Origin: a virus
IMG/VR virus record: IMGVR_UViG_3300032265_000967
Coordinates: 1 to 44,656 of that record
Reading direction: 5' to 3' (one strand)
Length of the DNA stretch: 44,656 bases
This document shows positions 617 to 10,144 of this stretch, piece by piece. Positions within the stretch are counted from its first letter, which is position 1. Each line of letters starts with the position of its first letter. The notes under the pieces are model-generated. The model did not search any database. It had not been told where the DNA came from and saw nothing but the letters and a program-made list of their open reading frames with translations. The position numbers and the translations under genes were made by a program.

Positions 617-1822
617 ATGTCACAAGAACTATTAGAAAGCCGCTGGGGCGAGACCAAAGAAGCATTGCTCGAAGGTCTTAACGGCTCAAAGCGCAACAGC
701 ATGGGCGTTATCCTTGAGAATACACGCAAGTATTTGAAAGAAAACGCAACTGCTGGTTCCACAGCATCTGGCAACATCGCCACACTTAACCGTGTGATTC
801 TGCCAGTTATCCGTCGTGTTATGCCAACCGTTATTGCTAACGAATTGGTAGGCGTTCAGCCAATGACAGGCCCAGTTGGTCAAATCCACACTCTGCGTGT
901 TCGTTACGCACAGTCATTGACTGACAACTCTGCTGCCGCCACAAGCGTGTCAGCCGGTCAAGAAGCATTGTCACCATTCACGATTGCTCAAGCATATTCA
1001 ACTGTGCCACAAGCAACAAGCACTGCTACAAACTACACTGGTAACAACACTGCTACCATGGAAGGTACTGGCGGTAAGCAAATTTCTGTACAGATCTTGA
1101 AACAAGCTGTTGAAGCTCGTACACGTAAATTGCAAGCACGTTGGACTTTTGAATCTGCACAAGATGCACAAGCCATGCACGGTATTGACGTTGAAGCAGA
1201 AATTATGGCTGCTTTGGCTCAAGAAATTACTGCTGAAATCGACCAAGAGATCATTGCATCATTGATCACATTAGCTGGTACTGCTAGCTACACATATGAT
1301 CAAGCAAGCGTTTCAGGTACAGCAACATTCGTAGGTGACGAGCATGCTGCCTTGGCAGTTATGATCAATCGCGTAAGCAACTTGATCGCTCAACGTACAC
1401 GTCGTGGCGCTGGTAACTATGCTGTGGTTAGCCCATTTGCATTGACCATCCTACAAAGTGCTACAACATCTGCATTTGCACGTACAACTGAAGGCACATT
1501 CGAAGCTCCTACAAACACTAAGTTTGTTGGTACATTGAATAACGCAATGAAGGTATATGTAAACAGCTACGCAAGCGACTCAACTGATATTCTTATCGGT
1601 TACAAAGGCGCAAGCGAGTCTGATGCTCCTGCATTCTACTGCCCATACATCCCATTGATGTCAAGCGGTGTTGTATTGGATCCATCAACATTTGAACCAG
1701 TAGTATCATTCATGACACGTTATGGCTACGTAGAACTAAGCAATACTGCTTCTTCTCTAGGTAACGCCGCTGACTACTTAGGTCGTGTTGCTATTACTTC
1801 ATCAAACGTAAAATTCCAATAA
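617..1822 (+). CDS. 23: Major capsid protein gp23
   Basis: This 401-residue protein belongs to the T4 gp23 major capsid family (HK97 fold), which forms the head hexamers. Supporting segments are NRVILPVIRRVMPTVIANEL and the following VGVQPMTGPVGQI near residues 58-95, and the block EAEIMAALAQEITAEIDQEI near 192-211; both are characteristic of gp23 proteins. It is shorter than T4 gp23 (521 residues), as in many marine relatives. The gp21 protease prefers (L/I)xE; candidate N-terminal sites are LLE7, LLE19 and ILE34, with ILE34 lying just before the conserved mature region. The ATG has a strong AAGGAG ribosome site 7 bases upstream, and a strong terminator follows the stop. Confidence 0.95.
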   Translation: MSQELLESRWGETKEALLEGLNGSKRNSMGVILENTRKYLKENATAGSTASGNIATLNRVILPVIRRVMPTVIANELVGVQPMTGPVGQIHTLRVRYAQSLTDNSAAATSVSAGQEALSPFTIAQAYSTVPQATSTATNYTGNNTATMEGTGGKQISVQILKQAVEARTRKLQARWTFESAQDAQAMHGIDVEAEIMAALAQEITAEIDQEIIASLITLAGTASYTYDQASVSGTATFVGDEHAALAVMINRVSNLIAQRTRRGAGNYAVVSPFALTILQSATTSAFARTTEGTFEAPTNTKFVGTLNNAMKVYVNSYASDSTDILIGYKGASESDAPAFYCPYIPLMSSGVVLDPSTFEPVVSFMTRYGYVELSNTASSLGNAADYLGRVAITSSNVKFQ

Positions 1823-1844: not shown

Positions 1845-1872
1845 AAAGGGCTCTTCGGAGCCCTTTTGTTTT
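1845..1872 (+). terminator. Intrinsic terminator after the capsid gene
   Basis: A perfect stem AAAGGGCTC / GAGCCCTTT with the stable tetraloop TTCG (1854-1857) is followed by TGTTTT. It lies 22 bases after the gp23 stop, with a late promoter box immediately downstream, so it separates capsid transcription from the next gene. Confidence 0.93.
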
Positions 1873-1874
1873 GA

Positions 1875-1882
1875 GTAAATAT
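1875..1882 (+). promoter_or_regulatory. T4-type late promoter box (GTAAATAT)
   Basis: TAAATA at 1876-1881 matches the core of the T4 late promoter TATAAATA. It sits directly after the terminator and 19 bases before the ATG at 1900, like several other boxes in this window. The ribosome site is weak (TGGAA). Confidence 0.6.
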
Positions 1883-1899
1883 ACTTACTGGAATACATC

Positions 1900-2637
1900 A
1901 TGCAAATATATGTTAATTACAATGGAAAGATAATTACCCTTGAGGTAGAACCATCGGATAGTATTGAAAATGTCCAAGCCAAAGTTCAAGATAAAGAAGG
2001 AATCCCTCCAGTCCGACAAATTTTAACATTTAACAATCGAATTCTTGAAACTGGCCGTACATTAGATGATTACTCTATTATACGTAATTCAACAATTATT
2101 TTAACGTTAATTCTCCTTGCACTTACTACTACAGATTTTATTACTCCCGGAACAGTATCACAAGTTAGTGTAGACACAGGTATTGCGTGGAATCATCCTC
2201 TAGCTAGTATAGGTCGAGATGGTTATCGCTATGCTGTTTCAGCTAGACCTTTACATACTATTTCAGGCCTATGGCAAGAACGTTTTGCCTCAATGACTAA
2301 CCAATTATGGTTTACTAATTTTAGTTTCGCTCCAGCTGGTACTAGACTACTAGGTGTCGAAGTACAGATTAATGCTATTCGTAGTGCTCGAATACAAGAT
2401 TATATTGTACAGTTAGTTATAAATGGCTCTAGAGTCGGAGATAACCTAGCGGATCCGGACACTAGCAACTACAAAATTTATGGCACTAGTACAAATTTGT
2501 GGAACAGTGATCTAACTATTATAGACACTATAAATCCCACGTTTGGAGTAGTTATTGCACAACGCAGTAATGTTTCAATACCGCATACTGACCTTGCCTA
2601 CATTGATAACATAGCCATGCGAATCACTTACAGCTAA
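1900..2637 (+). CDS. Ubiquitin-domain fusion protein, probable virion protein
   Basis: This 245-residue protein has two parts. Residues 1-72 align with eukaryotic ubiquitin at about 46 of 72-73 positions by hand count, with one residue deleted in the first hairpin. It keeps [29 protein letters not shown] and DY.I. The RLRGG tail is replaced by hydrophobic residues (ILLAL) that run into the second domain. Lys48 and Lys63 equivalents are Arg47 and Arg62, Lys6 and Lys27 are Asn6 and Gln26, and Ile44 and Val70 are both Thr. Residues ~80-245 form a beta-rich domain with patterns seen in phage and bacterial surface proteins: [47 protein letters not shown]. The gene lies alone between the gp23 terminator and its own late promoter on one side and another promoter on the other, so it is expressed late. 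A capsid decoration or fibre role is inferred, not shown. Confidence 0.85.
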
Positions 2638-2641
2638 ATAC
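2634..2641 (+). promoter_or_regulatory. T4-type late promoter box (CTAAATAC), overlapping a stop codon
   Basis: The box overlaps the TAA stop (2635-2637) of the ubiquitin-fusion gene. It precedes the 880-residue gene by ~90 bases, unlike most late boxes here, and the intervening leader is structured. Confidence 0.6.
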
Positions 2642-2729: not shown

Positions 2730-5372
2730 ATGGGACGTCCTTTAGCAAGAAGATTTTTCGGTAGAACAAACACCGACACAAGCGGTCTATATAGCCAAAA
2801 TGCATTAACAAGCGATGCAGAACTAGGTGGTCAACCACTAGCTAGTGTTACAGTAAACACAGCTGGTTCATATACTCAAGCACAAGCAGTTGCACTAGTA
2901 ACAACAATTCCAGCTCCATTACTAGCATCAGAAGGTGCAGTAACAGCAACAACATCAGCGGCAACATTTGCTTATCTAAGCGGTGGTACACTAAGTGGCA
3001 CACAAACAGTTGCATATCTAGGCGGTGCGGGTAATCCATTAGTGACACAAACTATCGATGGTAGTGCTATTACACTAACACCAACGCTAACAGCAACAAC
3101 TACATCAGGTGCTTTAAGTTTTAACACATCAACAGCTATTACCTATACAACATCAAATACATACTTACCAGGTACTAGCGTAACACTTACAACAGTTGGT
3201 ACAGGTACACTAACAATTGGTGGTACAGCATTAGCCTCAATCCCAGTAAACACAACATACTATGTTGCCGCTTACCCAGCACCAACATCAACATCAGTTG
3301 GTCTAAGCTCAACATACGCTCTAGCAGTTGGAGCTACATCAGGTAACGTAGGTACTAACGTGCTAACAATCGTAACTGGTACAACAACAAGTGCAGTGTT
3401 TACATTTGGTTCAACATACAACTCAATCGCATCTGTAGCACTGGCTACCAATGGCGGTGGTGCGTTCTTACAAGCTGGTATGGCTACAGTAACCGGCGCA
3501 TTAACAACAACACAAGCAACTAGTTCAGGCGCTGGCGCAACTTTTACAGTTACATCAGCTGCCTTTGGTGTTAACACTATCGGTATTAATAATAAAGGTG
3601 ACGGCTACTTGCCAGCAACAGTTGGTACTGGAAATATTACGTCAGCTGCCGCAACAACACAAGCAACTTCAATTACATCAAGTACAACAGCCGGTGTTAT
3701 GACTGTTACCGCAGTAACTGGTACAATTACCAACGGTATGATCATGAGCGGTGGTACTGGTACAGCCGGCGCATACGTTGTTCAACAATTGACTGGCTCT
3801 TCAGGTGCTTTAGTTGACACAGCAGTAGCGATAGCAGGCGGTGCATTTGACACACGTACAGTTTCAGTTAACAACGGTAATACAAGTATTGTTACTGGAC
3901 TAATTGTAAGCGGTACAGGTATTCCAGCAGGAACAACAGTTAACGCAGTTACACTTAACACCACAGTAGTTACCGGCGCAACTGCTCTTACTGCTAACAC
4001 AGTAACAGTAACTGGTTTCCAAACTATTGCTAACTATCAACAGTTAGTAGTTGGTGGTAGTACAGGTAGTGCTACATCTAACCTAGCAACTGGTACATAC
4101 TACATCTATAACGTACAAACAACTAGCGGTAACACTGTTACAACTACATTTAACTTGGCAACAAGTTATAGCAACGCTGTAGCAGGTACACAAAGCACAT
4201 TTACAGCTGGTACAATTGGATCTCTTACATTTACTCTAAGCACAAGCGCAGATATTACATTAACTAACGTGTTTACGGGTAACGTAACTGCTCTAGGCTC
4301 AACTTTAAGTTTCTACACTCCAGGCGGTGTTGGTACATACTCATTGGGTATTAATGACACTACTAAAGGTACTGCAATTTCAGCAGCCACCCTAACTGGT
4401 ACTTATACAACTGGTACATTGAATCCAATCAACGTTACACAAACAGTTGATATGAGCCCAGGTTCAGCATTTACTCCACAGGTAAACGTTGGTGGCTTAA
4501 CTGGTGGTACAACTTATTATATTACCACTGTTCAAGGTCCGACTAGTATCCAGGTGGCTACAACACCAGGTGCGACAAGTAACCAATCAACTAGTGCAAC
4601 GGCAGCTGCCACAGGAACACTAGCATCGTTTGCTTATGCTTCAAGTACAACAGTTAGCTTTACTACTACAACAGTTGCTATTCCAGTAGGTACTCCAATC
4701 ACAGTTAGCGGTACAGCTACTGGTACAGGTACAATTAATGGATCAGTTCCAACAGCAGGTACAGTATACTACGCAGGTGGTACAAGCACTACTGGTGCAA
4801 CATTGTATACATCAGTGGCGCTTGCTATTGCCGCTGGTACTGGTTTAACTATTGTTGCTGGTAACGGATTTACAGGTTTAACATTTACCTATGCAATCGG
4901 TGTTTCTGCTCCTTTTGGTCAGAACTTAACATTGACATTAACAAGTGCTGGTTCAACAGCAGGTACTGCTACAGCAGTTCGAGCAACAGCTAATACAAGT
5001 GCAGTCGGTCAAGCAGGTCAAAATGCTTACCCAGCGATCCAAGCAACTGCATTCCTAAACGTTGCAGACGGCGGACTTCAGCCACGTCAGTTGTCAGATA
5101 TTATTCAACAGAAAGGTTCACGTCGTTATCGCGTTGAAAATATTGATGGTTCAGGCATTGTTAACCTAACAGATGTTACACCAATCAGTGCAGGATTTAT
5201 GACGATCCAAGCTACTGACTCAGCTGGCGGAACATACTATATTACTAAGTTGACCAAGAACGGTGCAGTGCTAACACAGCGTACAGGTACACAGTTTGCA
5301 ACAGGACAACGTGTAATTTGGACAACAGGTACAGCAGTTCTAAACACATCAGTTACTATTGATAATCAATAA
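2730..5372 (+). CDS. Repetitive Thr/Ser/Gly-rich virion structural protein
   Basis: This 880-residue protein has a basic start (MGRPLARRFFGRTN) and a distinct C-terminal block from about residue 770 (GLQPRQLSDIIQQKGSRRYR, then TIQATDSAGGTYYITKL and TGTQFATGQRVIW), a head-and-tail pattern known from uncharacterised structural proteins of T4-like marine phages. Between them lie several hundred residues of Thr, Gly, Ser and Ala-rich beta sequence with short modules shared with the fibre genes downstream, such as GMIMSGGTGTAGAYVVQQL near residues 333-351. It contains almost no charged residues in the middle and no recognisable catalytic motif. A strong ribosome site (AAGGAG) precedes the ATG. A surface or fibre role is inferred. 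Confidence 0.75.
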   Translation: MGRPLARRFFGRTNTDTSGLYSQNALTSDAELGGQPLASVTVNTAGSYTQAQAVALVTTIPAPLLASEGAVTATTSAATFAYLSGGTLSGTQTVAYLGGAGNPLVTQTIDGSAITLTPTLTATTTSGALSFNTSTAITYTTSNTYLPGTSVTLTTVGTGTLTIGGTALASIPVNTTYYVAAYPAPTSTSVGLSSTYALAVGATSGNVGTNVLTIVTGTTTSAVFTFGSTYNSIASVALATNGGGAFLQAGMATVTGALTTTQATSSGAGATFTVTSAAFGVNTIGINNKGDGYLPATVGTGNITSAAATTQATSITSSTTAGVMTVTAVTGTITNGMIMSGGTGTAGAYVVQQLTGSSGALVDTAVAIAGGAFDTRTVSVNNGNTSIVTGLIVSGTGIPAGTTVNAVTLNTTVVTGATALTANTVTVTGFQTIANYQQLVVGGSTGSATSNLATGTYYIYNVQTTSGNTVTTTFNLATSYSNAVAGTQSTFTAGTIGSLTFTLSTSADITLTNVFTGNVTALGSTLSFYTPGGVGTYSLGINDTTKGTAISAATLTGTYTTGTLNPINVTQTVDMSPGSAFTPQVNVGGLTGGTTYYITTVQGPTSIQVATTPGATSNQSTSATAAATGTLASFAYASSTTVSFTTTTVAIPVGTPITVSGTATGTGTINGSVPTAGTVYYAGGTSTTGATLYTSVALAIAAGTGLTIVAGNGFTGLTFTYAIGVSAPFGQNLTLTLTSAGSTAGTATAVRATANTSAVGQAGQNAYPAIQATAFLNVADGGLQPRQLSDIIQQKGSRRYRVENIDGSGIVNLTDVTPISAGFMTIQATDSAGGTYYITKLTKNGAVLTQRTGTQFATGQRVIWTTGTAVLNTSVTIDNQ

Positions 5373-6388: not shown

Positions 6389-6715
6389 ATGGCAATAGCA
6401 AACATAGTAGTAGGAGCATCAAACAGTACACTTTATACAAGTAGTGTCACTGGAACACAAATTGGTAACGCTATTACCACTATGATCATCTGCAACACAA
6501 CACCTTCAACTAGTGCAAATTTAACATTGTATGCAGTTCCAAGCGGTGGCACAGCCAATGCAGGCACAATGATCGTAAACGCATTAACAATTCCTCCAGG
6601 CGAAACTGTAAGTTTAGATCAAGAAAAAATGGTTTTAGGATCAAGTGATACAATACAGGGATTTAGTTCGCAAGCAACTACACTAACATTTACAATTAGT
6701 ACACTACCAGTATAA
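6389..6715 (+). CDS. Small beta-sandwich virion protein
   Basis: This 108-residue protein is predicted to be almost wholly beta. Its pattern (NSTLYTSS, IICNTTPSTSANLTLYAVP, LTIPPGETVSL, KMVLGSSDTIQGF) recurs in the small proteins at 11791, 31848 and 44266, which form one family. The members sit just before or after large fibre genes. The stop overlaps the next start (TAATG), so translation is probably coupled to the downstream LamG protein. The role is unknown; a knob or adaptor on a fibre is possible. Confidence 0.7.
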   Translation: MAIANIVVGASNSTLYTSSVTGTQIGNAITTMIICNTTPSTSANLTLYAVPSGGTANAGTMIVNALTIPPGETVSLDQEKMVLGSSDTIQGFSSQATTLTFTISTLPV

Positions 6716-8904
6716 TGAGATATTTAAAACGTCAAACTTTAGATAGAAGAAGCGCAAACAATACAACTTTGTATTCAGACGCCGCTCGAGCCAACGTCTA
6801 TGTAAGTCCAGTAGGGCAAGGTAGCCTTGTACTACCAACAGGTCCAACCGGCAATCAACCTAGCAGTCCTGTAGTTGGTATGATGCGTTATGATACTACA
6901 TTAGATCAAGTTATGGTTTATCAATCTGGTACATGGAGAGCATTACGTTTTAAAGAATCATCAGGAGTAACTCAACAGAACCTAGGTGCGGGAGATGGAA
7001 CTACTGTATACTTTGGACCGTTAAGTCCGGCACCCCCTGCTACTGTTCAAAGTGGCACAACTTGGGGTCCACAAAATATTCTTGTTGTAGTAGAAAATGT
7101 ACTACAACTTTCTGGATTAAATTACACAGTTCAACAAAATCCAACTATTGGTGCTGAAACATATTTAGGCTATCTAAGCTATGCCGCAACTAGCGGAGTT
7201 ATAACACTATACTTTAATAGTGATGTTTATGTAACTGGTGGTAGCTGGACTAGTACAACAGCAACATTAACATTTGCTACAAAAACGCAAACACCATTCG
7301 CTATAGGATCAACAATTACAGTATCTGGAATTGCCCCAAGTGCGTATAATGGCGCATATACTGTTACAGGTTCAACAACCGGCAGCGTTAGTTACACACT
7401 AGCTAGCAATCCAGGAACTTATCTAAACGGTGGCGAAATAATTGCCACAGGTGCATATCCAGCAGTATATCCCGCAGTAACACTTAATGGTGCTACAGTT
7501 TCAGCCAGCATCGCAGGCAGCGGTGGATCTTTATATTTTAACAATGCAGGTGCCTCGGCTACCATTACACTAAGTGGAAATATTGCTGGTACTACAATGA
7601 CAGTAAGTACAGCAACCGGAACAATATTACCAGGTATGAAACTAACTGGTAGTAGTGTAACAGCTGGAACGTATATTACTAGTCAAGCCAGTGGTACCAC
7701 AGGCGCCGCAGGTGTTTATAATCTAAATCAATCAGCTAGTTCAACTGGCACATCAATTACTGGCACAGTTACAGCTAACACAGAATATTTGGTCAGTTCT
7801 AACGGAATTACCATTGGAGCAGCCAACTCTGCAGGCGCATTTACAGTTGAGTGTTTTGTCTATTGGACCACAGTTCCAACTAGCATAACTGCAATTTGGG
7901 CATCAACTGCTCAAGCTAGTGGAGGAGCATTTACACTAGGTGTAAGTAACGCAACTACTATTGCTCTTGACTCTAGCGGAGTAAGTCAGATAACATTTAC
8001 AGTTCCTACTATGACTACTGGTGTTTGGTACCATATTGCAGTGTCACGTGATGCTAACTCTAACATAACTGTTTTCTTAAATGGAACACGTAGTTCAACT
8101 GGTTCAGTAACATCATCGCAAAACTTTGCCGGCGCTAGCAGTTATATTGGTAATTTTGGTAACGGCGGTCCTGCATGGAACCCAGCAGGTATGTACTTGA
8201 CTAACCTACGTGTAGTTACCGGACAAAATGTGTATGATCCTACAGCGAGTACAATAACAGTTCCAAGTACACCATTAGCTACTATAAGCAGTCTAAACGT
8301 TGGTGGTGGTACAGTAGGAACTATCGCGGGAACAGGTCCGTGGACAGCAGTTATAACAGGAATTACTAGCACCGCTGGGTTAGCTGTTGGCAACTCAATC
8401 ACAGCTACCGCAGGAGTTGGCACTCTATATGGCGGAAGCCCGACTAAAGTTGTAATTACCGGACTTACAGCCAACACAATTAACTATACTGTAACCGGAG
8501 GTACAACGCCAACAGCAGGCACAGTTACATCAATTACAGCCAATTATAATACCCGTTTACTAATGACAGTAGCATCAAGCGGTGCTTATTTGACAGATAC
8601 TACCGGCGGCGGTACAATCACTCAAGCAGGAGTTACTGGTTATGTAACCTATAACAGTAATTATAATCCAAGTTCTGTATCATTATCGACTACTGTTTCT
8701 AGCTATGTTGTTGATTCAAATACTGGCGCACTAGTCAGTATAACATTAAATCCATCTGGACCAAGCGGAACATTGCCGGTTAATAGTACAATTACTATTG
8801 TAGAAAACACGCAAGTTATTTCTAGCAACGGGTACTATTTAAAATTTAGCTCACCAGTACCTTACGGTAAAACAGTCATAGCCCTGATCGGCTTCGACAG
8901 CTAA
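6715..8904 (+). CDS. Fibre protein with interrupted LamG-like lectin domain
   Basis: This 729-residue protein has, in order: a phage fibre segment (residues ~29-80: RPSSP-type SSPVVGMMRYDTT, YQSGTWRALRF); a segment with FGPLSPAPPATVQSGTTW and ILVVVENVLQL (~100-135) typical of cyanophage structural proteins; a module with YNGAYTVTG (~178-243); then a concanavalin A/LamG-like lectin domain from ~273. The lectin signs are GSLYFNNAG, FTVECFVYW, GVWYHIAVSRDANSNITVFLNG, YIGNFGNGGPAWNPAGMYLTNLRVV and the final strand TRLLMTVASSGAYLTDTTG. Two stretches inside that fold, ~283-355 and ~527-609, do not belong to it and look like inserted modules. Host glycan binding is inferred from the fold. The start overlaps the preceding stop. 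Confidence 0.75.
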   Translation: MRYLKRQTLDRRSANNTTLYSDAARANVYVSPVGQGSLVLPTGPTGNQPSSPVVGMMRYDTTLDQVMVYQSGTWRALRFKESSGVTQQNLGAGDGTTVYFGPLSPAPPATVQSGTTWGPQNILVVVENVLQLSGLNYTVQQNPTIGAETYLGYLSYAATSGVITLYFNSDVYVTGGSWTSTTATLTFATKTQTPFAIGSTITVSGIAPSAYNGAYTVTGSTTGSVSYTLASNPGTYLNGGEIIATGAYPAVYPAVTLNGATVSASIAGSGGSLYFNNAGASATITLSGNIAGTTMTVSTATGTILPGMKLTGSSVTAGTYITSQASGTTGAAGVYNLNQSASSTGTSITGTVTANTEYLVSSNGITIGAANSAGAFTVECFVYWTTVPTSITAIWASTAQASGGAFTLGVSNATTIALDSSGVSQITFTVPTMTTGVWYHIAVSRDANSNITVFLNGTRSSTGSVTSSQNFAGASSYIGNFGNGGPAWNPAGMYLTNLRVVTGQNVYDPTASTITVPSTPLATISSLNVGGGTVGTIAGTGPWTAVITGITSTAGLAVGNSITATAGVGTLYGGSPTKVVITGLTANTINYTVTGGTTPTAGTVTSITANYNTRLLMTVASSGAYLTDTTGGGTITQAGVTGYVTYNSNYNPSSVSLSTTVSSYVVDSNTGALVSITLNPSGPSGTLPVNSTITIVENTQVISSNGYYLKFSSPVPYGKTVIALIGFDS

Positions 8905-8914
8905 GGAGTTAATT

Positions 8915-10144
8915 ATGTCTCAATTGGGACGTATAGGTGGCGCATTACTAGCAGGAAATCTCCTGCGCAACGGCACAGATCTTGCTTTTGAAAACACCCT
9001 CCTTTATCTAAATGTAAACAGCAAATACATTGGTATTAACTCTAACGGTCCTAGTTCAGATCTTACTATAGGAACAGCATTAGATAATGGCGGCACCGGA
9101 ACTAGCTCACTACGCACTGTTAATTTAGTAGCTACAAGTACTAATATTGGCAACTTTGTTATTGGTACAAATACTATTCAACATTTAACAGGCAGTATCA
9201 CAGTACAGCCTAATCAGTCTAGTAATCCTACTATTGTTACTCCGGGTCTAAGCACTGCTAATTTATATTTTTATGGCAATACCTTAAGTGATACAGTTAC
9301 AAATGATACTGTAAATATTTCACCTAACGGAACTGGGGCTATTAATTTTGCCAATGATGCAGGTAGTGTACAAGTTACTGTTAACGCAGGACTGCATGCT
9401 ACGGGAAATATTACTTGGGACGGCAACATTACTCTCGGAGATGCCAGTACAGATCGTATTACATTTGCCGCAGAAGTTAATAGCGACATACTGCCAACTG
9501 TAAATAATTCTTTAATTACTCCTGTTAGTCAACCTTTAACAGCCCAAGATGGCTCTGTTTTTGTAGCTAATGATGGAGTTACTGTATTATATTCTAACCC
9601 TCAGGCACCCTACTATCAAACTACATATTTGTGGGATTTAGGTAGTAGTTCGTTGTTATGGAATAATTTGTATACTAGAACATTAACAGCAGTCAGTGGA
9701 ACTCCCAGTATAGTAACAGCAACAAATAATACTATAGGTAACTTTAGTATTACTGGAAATAATATCAGTAATGCTAACAACGATATCAGTTACACTACTA
9801 CTGGAACCGGTCAAGTTAAGTTCAATACTTGGCCATATATTCAGGGCAGTAATATTGTAAATCCAAATCAATTAAACTTTAACCTAAATTCTACAGCCAA
9901 TGGTTATGTTAAATTTGCAGGTTCAAATGGATTTGTTCTCCCCACCGGAACTACATCAGGTGCAACTAATGGCCGCCCATTGCGTCCCGAAGAAGGAACA
10001 ACTCGCTGGAATTCTACAGCCAGTTATATTGAAATTTATAGTAGTACACTTGGATGGATTCCAGTATATGGAACAGCTTCTAACGCTACTATCAATGATG
10101 TCACTGATCTTTCCACCCTTTATACTATTGTCTTCGGCTACTAA
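8915..10144 (+). CDS. Fibre protein, paralog of the 501-residue protein downstream
   Basis: This 409-residue protein has an N-terminus (LGRIGGALLAGNLLRNGTDL, then LAFENTLLYLNV) shared with the protein at 10282 (RISGPLLKDNLLRNGVNL). The repeat NISPNGTGAINF and the block LHATGNITWDGNITLGD are also shared. The C-terminal part, with GYVKFAGSNGFVLPTGTT, RPEEGTTRWNSTASYIEIY and GWIPVYG, is a typical fibre-end pattern. In the middle, TTYLWDLGSSSLLWNNLYT matches the phage fibre motif seen elsewhere as YDLGSPSKRWRSLYVG. The ribosome site GGAG is good. The common N-terminus suggests that both proteins attach to the same partner on the virion. Confidence 0.72.
   Translation: MSQLGRIGGALLAGNLLRNGTDLAFENTLLYLNVNSKYIGINSNGPSSDLTIGTALDNGGTGTSSLRTVNLVATSTNIGNFVIGTNTIQHLTGSITVQPNQSSNPTIVTPGLSTANLYFYGNTLSDTVTNDTVNISPNGTGAINFANDAGSVQVTVNAGLHATGNITWDGNITLGDASTDRITFAAEVNSDILPTVNNSLITPVSQPLTAQDGSVFVANDGVTVLYSNPQAPYYQTTYLWDLGSSSLLWNNLYTRTLTAVSGTPSIVTATNNTIGNFSITGNNISNANNDISYTTTGTGQVKFNTWPYIQGSNIVNPNQLNFNLNSTANGYVKFAGSNGFVLPTGTTSGATNGRPLRPEEGTTRWNSTASYIEIYSSTLGWIPVYGTASNATINDVTDLSTLYTIVFGY

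Follow-up and report, generated by a model that had tools for sequence, protein, structure and literature searches.

The DNA analysed here (the window), a linear fragment of 44.7 kb from IMG/VR, contains the gene for a T4-like major capsid protein, gp23, followed by an open reading frame whose product begins with ubiquitin and continues into a second domain, which we call the carrier (Table 1). An earlier note on this DNA had placed the fusion gene in a T4-like virion region, and that placement holds: gp23 lies upstream, the genes just 3' of the fusion gene are fibre-like or virion-like, and tail sheath, head-tail adaptor, tail fibre or baseplate genes are found farther downstream. Of the T4-like head-gene order the window has gp23, and two related contigs, L185 and L186, show the full gp21-scaffold-gp23 order. 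After the ubiquitin gene, positions 2730-5372 and 6715-8904 encode long, low-complexity, Thr/Gly/Ser-rich beta-type proteins that are probably virion fibres; a Pfam search with the 2730-5372 protein gave no match. The isolates nearest to the window gp23 are the large T4-like phages Vibrio 2.275.O and PA5oct (65-66%). In isolated large phages (PA5oct, Vibrio 2.275.O, GAP32) what follows gp23 varies from phage to phage before fibre genes are reached, and no annotated counterpart of the fusion gene was found after gp23 in these three.

Table 1. Features of the window around the ubiquitin-carrier fusion gene.
Feature	Position	Strand	Basis
gp23, major capsid protein, T4-like	617..1822	+	Pfam PF07068 E 1.4e-97; PHROG 138 E 1e-99
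Intrinsic terminator-like hairpin 3' of gp23, GGGCTCTTCGGAGCCC plus T run	1848..1872	+	Read from sequence
Late-promoter-like motif TAAATATA	1876..1883	+	Consensus match only
Short leader with SD-like TGGAAT	1882..1899	+	Alignment of L197 (no ubiquitin) with L199/L200 (ubiquitin)
ORF, ubiquitin-carrier fusion	1900-2637	+	ATG start, 245 aa
Ubiquitin domain	1900..2124	+	Residues 1-75, equivalent to human 1-76 minus one residue at position 8
Carrier domain (residues 76-245), predicted jelly roll, CBM/galactose-binding-like topology	2125..2634	+	AlphaFold2, Foldseek, orthologues
Late-promoter-like motif of the next gene, TAAATAC	2635..2641	+	Overlaps the fusion-gene stop codon

The signals between gp23 and the fusion gene are shared with relatives to different degrees. 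The terminator-like hairpin stands at the same position in related loci, and the late-promoter-like motif before the carrier gene is conserved in relatives with and without ubiquitin, while the SD-like leader occurs only together with the ubiquitin segment. The late promoter that the earlier note had assigned to this gene corresponds to a late-promoter-like TAAATA motif, identified by its match to the consensus; the window has 13 such motifs, of which 8 directly precede a gene.

The N-terminal part of the window protein is a true ubiquitin domain, a member of PF00240. It scores 56.2 bits against the Pfam profile (curated cut-off 25.4; E 3e-15), with other phage copies at 46.5 and 70.3 bits, and a phmmer search against PDB aligned residues 1-71 with ubiquitin repeats that score about 70 bits each (i-Evalue about 3e-18). 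A hand alignment had put the likeness at about 46 positions, or 63%, and had singled out the runs TLEVEPSD and QDKEGIPP. Both points stand: MAFFT gives 63% identity to human ubiquitin (46/75 when the diverged tail is counted), and the two runs are identical in the window protein and ubiquitin. PHROG returned no match of the protein to a ubiquitin family. Structure prediction, which had been proposed as a check, gave a confident AlphaFold2 model of a ubiquitin beta-grasp followed by a jelly roll (alignment input from the window and locus proteins; mean pLDDT 93.5, mostly above 90 in residues 1-70), and Foldseek matched predicted residues 1-75 to ubiquitin structures at 0.7-1.1 Å. Despite the high pLDDT, pTM is 0.72 and the placement of ubiquitin relative to the jelly roll is unsure. 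The two domains are joined without a linker in the window and through a short Pro-rich linker in a related fusion (L200). Codon use in the ubiquitin segment lies at the 6th percentile, which is low but inside the phage range.

To describe what has changed in this domain, we compared four phage ubiquitins (window, L199, L200 and L095) residue by residue, using human numbering. The C-terminal LRLRGG of human ubiquitin reads LILLAL in the window, and the GlyGly position, AL in the window and PP, PP and TI in the others, is lost in 4/4. The I44 patch (L8/I44/H68/V70) is deleted/T/I/T in the window and likewise lost in the other three; across the four copies L8 is deleted, I44 is T or K, H68 is I or V and V70 is T. 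R42, R72 and R74 are changed in every copy, and K48 and K6 are replaced in the window ubiquitin. The hydrophobic core is kept at 12-14 of 14 positions, as against 1-2 of the 14 positions that we take to be the ubiquitin partner interface (8, 42, 44, 47-49, 68 and 70-76) and 26-37 of the 48 remaining ones. Fisher p-values for interface loss ranged from 3e-6 to 2e-3 per sequence, and the four sequences share ancestry and are not four independent tests. Because the I44 patch, R42/R72/R74 and the C-terminal GlyGly are lost, tagging, deubiquitination after Gly76 and ordinary recognition through the I44 patch appear very unlikely for the phage ubiquitins, judging from their residues and general ubiquitin biochemistry. 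Searches for ThiF-type E1 or Prok-JAB proteins in the five ubiquitin contigs, which are fragments, gave no match, and controls were positive.

The suggestion that ubiquitin is fused to a phage-type beta-sandwich is also supported: the carrier is a predicted jelly roll and has orthologues without ubiquitin in phages. Its fold is predicted to be of the carbohydrate-binding or galactose-binding-like jelly-roll kind: the best Foldseek match, at E 2e-3, is to carbohydrate-binding modules, and comparison with VIA gave Z 9.5 and rmsd 3.5 Å over 125 residues at 9% identity, matches that fall in the range of common arrangements. The orthologues are free-standing genes directly 3' of gp23 in related phages, and they begin MTTTxF exactly at the end of the window's ubiquitin. 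IMG/VR holds 80 carrier-bearing contigs, 77 of them with gp23 directly upstream; three fusion contigs and L217, which has another N-terminal extension, are the exceptions to a carrier with no N-terminal domain. Among 80 close gp23 relatives, five copies of the C-terminal half, all lacking ubiquitin, directly follow gp23. A ubiquitin profile that detected known positives found no match in 50 records with a ubiquitin-less carrier, and a carrier search of GenBank phages gave one weak match, to the start of a 'tail tubular protein A' gene. In six contigs (L063, L072, L077, L079, L081, L197) the ubiquitin-less carrier gene starts a few bases after the TAAATA motif. From their sequences, late mRNAs of such carriers look as if they were leaderless; the ubiquitin cassette brings an SD-like leader of its own.

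The same two-domain layout, which the earlier note had proposed to look for in other phages, follows gp23 in three further IMG/VR contigs of 103-223 kb (L182/L200, L185/L199 and L186/L201). L185 and L186 carry gp21-gp22-gp23-ubiquitin-carrier in one piece, and L182 carries gp23-ubiquitin-carrier. These relatives were found by a degenerate DNA pattern scan for ExGRTLxDYxI; a pattern search with the window's own peptides recovered no relative, and degenerate patterns were required. In a fifth contig, L095, ubiquitin is fused to a different, unrelated small protein (9068-10144, reverse-complement coordinates), of which a 79-aa paralogue without ubiquitin is the preceding gene; this contig has phage primase and helicase genes. 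Human ubiquitin searched against 50,697 GenBank phage records gave no match at E up to 1. Several other candidates were rejected as phage virion fusions: L008-L010 resemble giant viruses of eukaryotes, the ubiquitin of L006 is eukaryote-like and ends in RLRGG, and L002, L007/L092 and L094/L096/L097 have bacterial-type ubiquitins with a signal peptide.

Comparison of L200 with L197, the closest contig lacking ubiquitin, reveals an empty site. Their DNA is 86.8% identical across the 5.8 kb that end at the promoter motif and 80.6% identical past the insertion. What L197 cleanly lacks is a cassette of about 255 bp, comprising the SD-like leader and ubiquitin, which in L200 separates the late-promoter-like motif from the ancestral start codon. 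The carrier tree groups the window with L196 and L199/L200 (100/100) and places the window as sister to (L196,(L199,L200)) at 99/89. Given that L196 lacks ubiquitin, this pattern would fit either one gain followed by loss in L196 or two gains. One gain is favoured because the leaders of the window and L199/L200 are alike (TATACTtACtGGAATacATc / TATACTaACaGGAATttATt).

The window itself changes lineage at the 3' end of gp23. Up to about position 1750 (gp22-gp23) it is 88% identical in DNA to L014, whose following genes differ, and from the gp23 end onward it resembles L196/L200. By gp23 its nearest relatives are L011, L012 and L014, unlike its carrier gene, so either the gene moved by recombination between lineages or the window has an assembly join. 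This switch speaks for an assembly or binning artefact as the source of the fusion, an explanation that we nonetheless consider almost certainly wrong. L185, L186 and L182 each carry gp23-ubiquitin-carrier, and the ubiquitin is too diverged, at 63% and with its GG lost, for stray eukaryotic DNA. The earlier note had named an assembly chimera of the ubiquitin segment as a finding that would overturn its reading; three further fusion contigs and a precise empty site refute it.

Where the ubiquitin came from was addressed with a scan of GTDB, in which 309 bacterial or archaeal stretches across many phyla encode near-canonical ubiquitin. The closest 80, which were picked because they resemble the phage query, are on average 84% identical to human ubiquitin, so the view that bacterial ubiquitins are far more diverged than the phage copy was wrong. 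Within these 80, GG is kept in 6, S22 is present in 54 and most copies follow a signal peptide. Copies on long contigs of cultured strains come from Paracidovorax, Dyella, Pseudomonas protegens and Iodobacter; other matches are on short metagenome contigs and are possible contaminants. The distribution is sporadic, as 1 of 298 other genomes in an even Pseudomonadota sample matched, and weakly. The near-canonical ubiquitins behind signal peptides in L098-L177 span many bacterial phyla and are far more widespread than the published B. fragilis case; they often precede a large surface domain or an autotransporter-like region. In freshwater actinobacteria (L121, L128, L144 and L158) the same locus recurs with tandem genes for ubiquitin plus a beta-rich domain, with no signal peptide.

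The sequences nearest to the phage ubiquitins are bacterial, the L095 copy being closest to Iodobacter ubiquitin at 75%, and S22 and in part T/K44 are common to phage and bacterial ubiquitins. In a tree built on 74 alignment columns the phage copies sit on long branches, and neither phage monophyly nor a phage-eukaryote clade is rejected (p-AU 0.18 for phage plus eukaryote). Direct acquisition from a eukaryote, as first proposed, is therefore compatible with the trees and unproven. A bacterial donor appears at least as likely from these comparisons, and is the simpler reading because donor and phage would share one cell.

We propose that certain large T4-like phages, a group known from metagenomes, acquired a ubiquitin segment together with its short leader, which entered 3' of the late-promoter-like motif and 5' of the start codon of the gene after gp23. 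The outcome is a single late protein with N-terminal ubiquitin joined directly to the jelly roll, in which ubiquitin keeps its predicted fold and very probably has no capacity to act as a conjugation tag. The sequences themselves show the fusion, the place of insertion, the coming and going of the domain among near relatives and the loss of the features needed for conjugation. The jelly roll would be a virion component, of the head or of a head-proximal fibre or decoration; the location, late-promoter-like motif and fold of the carrier point to a virion protein, and we consider a virion location quite probable. Ubiquitin would then be an exposed, stable and exchangeable domain that remodels the outer surface of the jelly-roll protein, and it probably binds something on the bacterial surface or stabilises the protein. 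It has the look of an added surface module because it is N-terminal and dispensable, its partner face is changed and it occurs on two different proteins. Between these roles, exposed binding rather than mere stabilisation is close to an even call, tilted slightly against binding. Taken whole, a late virion protein with non-conjugatable ubiquitin as a display or binding module is the reading towards which we lean.

The ubiquitin-less sisters L196-L198 count against this reading, as they show that the phages can do without ubiquitin, whose addition could be neutral. A domain that binds no partner and merely helps folding or solubility, or is an almost neutral extension of the N-terminus, would fit the very stable fold, the near absence of linkers, the coming and going of ubiquitin between close relatives and the loss of its interface face. 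We nevertheless consider it rather unlikely, since the sequence has diverged strongly with the fold preserved (window and L200 ubiquitins are 50% identical, with the core intact) and a second fusion arose on another protein. Bacterial ubiquitin-like conjugation defence systems target virion proteins, and a conjugation-dead ubiquitin, delivered late or with the virion, would suit a dominant-negative decoy or inhibitor of such antiphage systems (E1/E2/JAB type). Against this, the surfaces touched by E1, E2 and JAB enzymes are those lost, the ubiquitin-likes of bacterial defence are much more diverged from ubiquitin, and the late-promoter-like motif and capsid-gene linkage suit a structural gene better; we find a decoy very unlikely.

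Action on a eukaryote, either a grazer or the bacterium's host, through receptor binding or a signalling block is highly improbable. The 63% identity and the trees' tolerance of a eukaryotic origin favour it, but none of the four phage sequences retains the I44 patch through which most ubiquitin receptors bind, and near-canonical ubiquitins in bacteria make a eukaryote unnecessary. We give as little credence to a secreted antibacterial factor against competitors, or a mimic of one, on the model of BfUbb: secretion is seen in the bacterial copies, one of which kills related strains (PMC5705921), but the phage protein has no signal peptide (it starts MQIYVN, and its ubiquitin-bearing relatives also start at ubiquitin) and its fusion partner is a capsid-adjacent protein.

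True ubiquitin has been regarded as almost exclusive to eukaryotes and the viruses that infect them, apart from a few secreted copies in bacteria. The phage copy shares with the eukaryotic and eukaryotic-virus PF00240 proteins the beta-grasp fold, its level of identity to human ubiquitin and a score above the cut-off. It differs in having no LRLRGG or I44 patch, in its replaced K48 and K6, in a deleted first-loop residue, in its fusion to a phage protein and in the lack of an E1-like gene in the contigs. Tail-assembly ubiquitin-like proteins of the lambda gpI type, which act in tail-tip assembly, share the beta-grasp in a phage setting but are distant from ubiquitin, whereas the window domain is a true PF00240 member. 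Decoration proteins of the T4 type (Hoc) and other phage virion proteins likewise gain and lose a small stable domain, in their case an Ig-like one; the likeness to these is one of mode of working, as the fold differs and surface display of the phage ubiquitin is a prediction.

Secreted ubiquitins of bacteria, of which BfUbb from Bacteroides fragilis is an example (PMC3352274, PMC5705921), resemble the phage copy in being near-canonical in a prokaryotic setting, with S22 common, GG mostly absent and, at times, a place N-terminal to a beta-rich surface domain. The phage copy differs in having no signal peptide, in lying in a virion gene cluster, in being more diverged and in having a partner jelly roll that exists alone in other phages. 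BfUbb, secreted and without a terminal glycine, has a non-tag function and potent activity on bacteria (PMC5705921), and its authors left open how ubiquitin genes spread among bacteria. We offer as speculation, and regard as unlikely, that phage particles display ubiquitin, which would serve as an exchangeable receptor-binding module directed at the same bacterial targets as the secreted bacterial ubiquitins, and that phages ferry ubiquitin genes between bacteria.

The open-access papers searched contained no report of ubiquitin encoded by a phage. Bacteria and eukaryotic viruses are known to have ubiquitin; what appears to be new is its occurrence as a polymorphic domain in a phage gene linked to the capsid gene. 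The presence and absence of ubiquitin in this gene among close relatives, with two different proteins carrying it, amount to a natural experiment and provide a testable case of ubiquitin as a pure protein module without tagging chemistry, as well as a way in which ubiquitin genes may pass from one bacterium to another.
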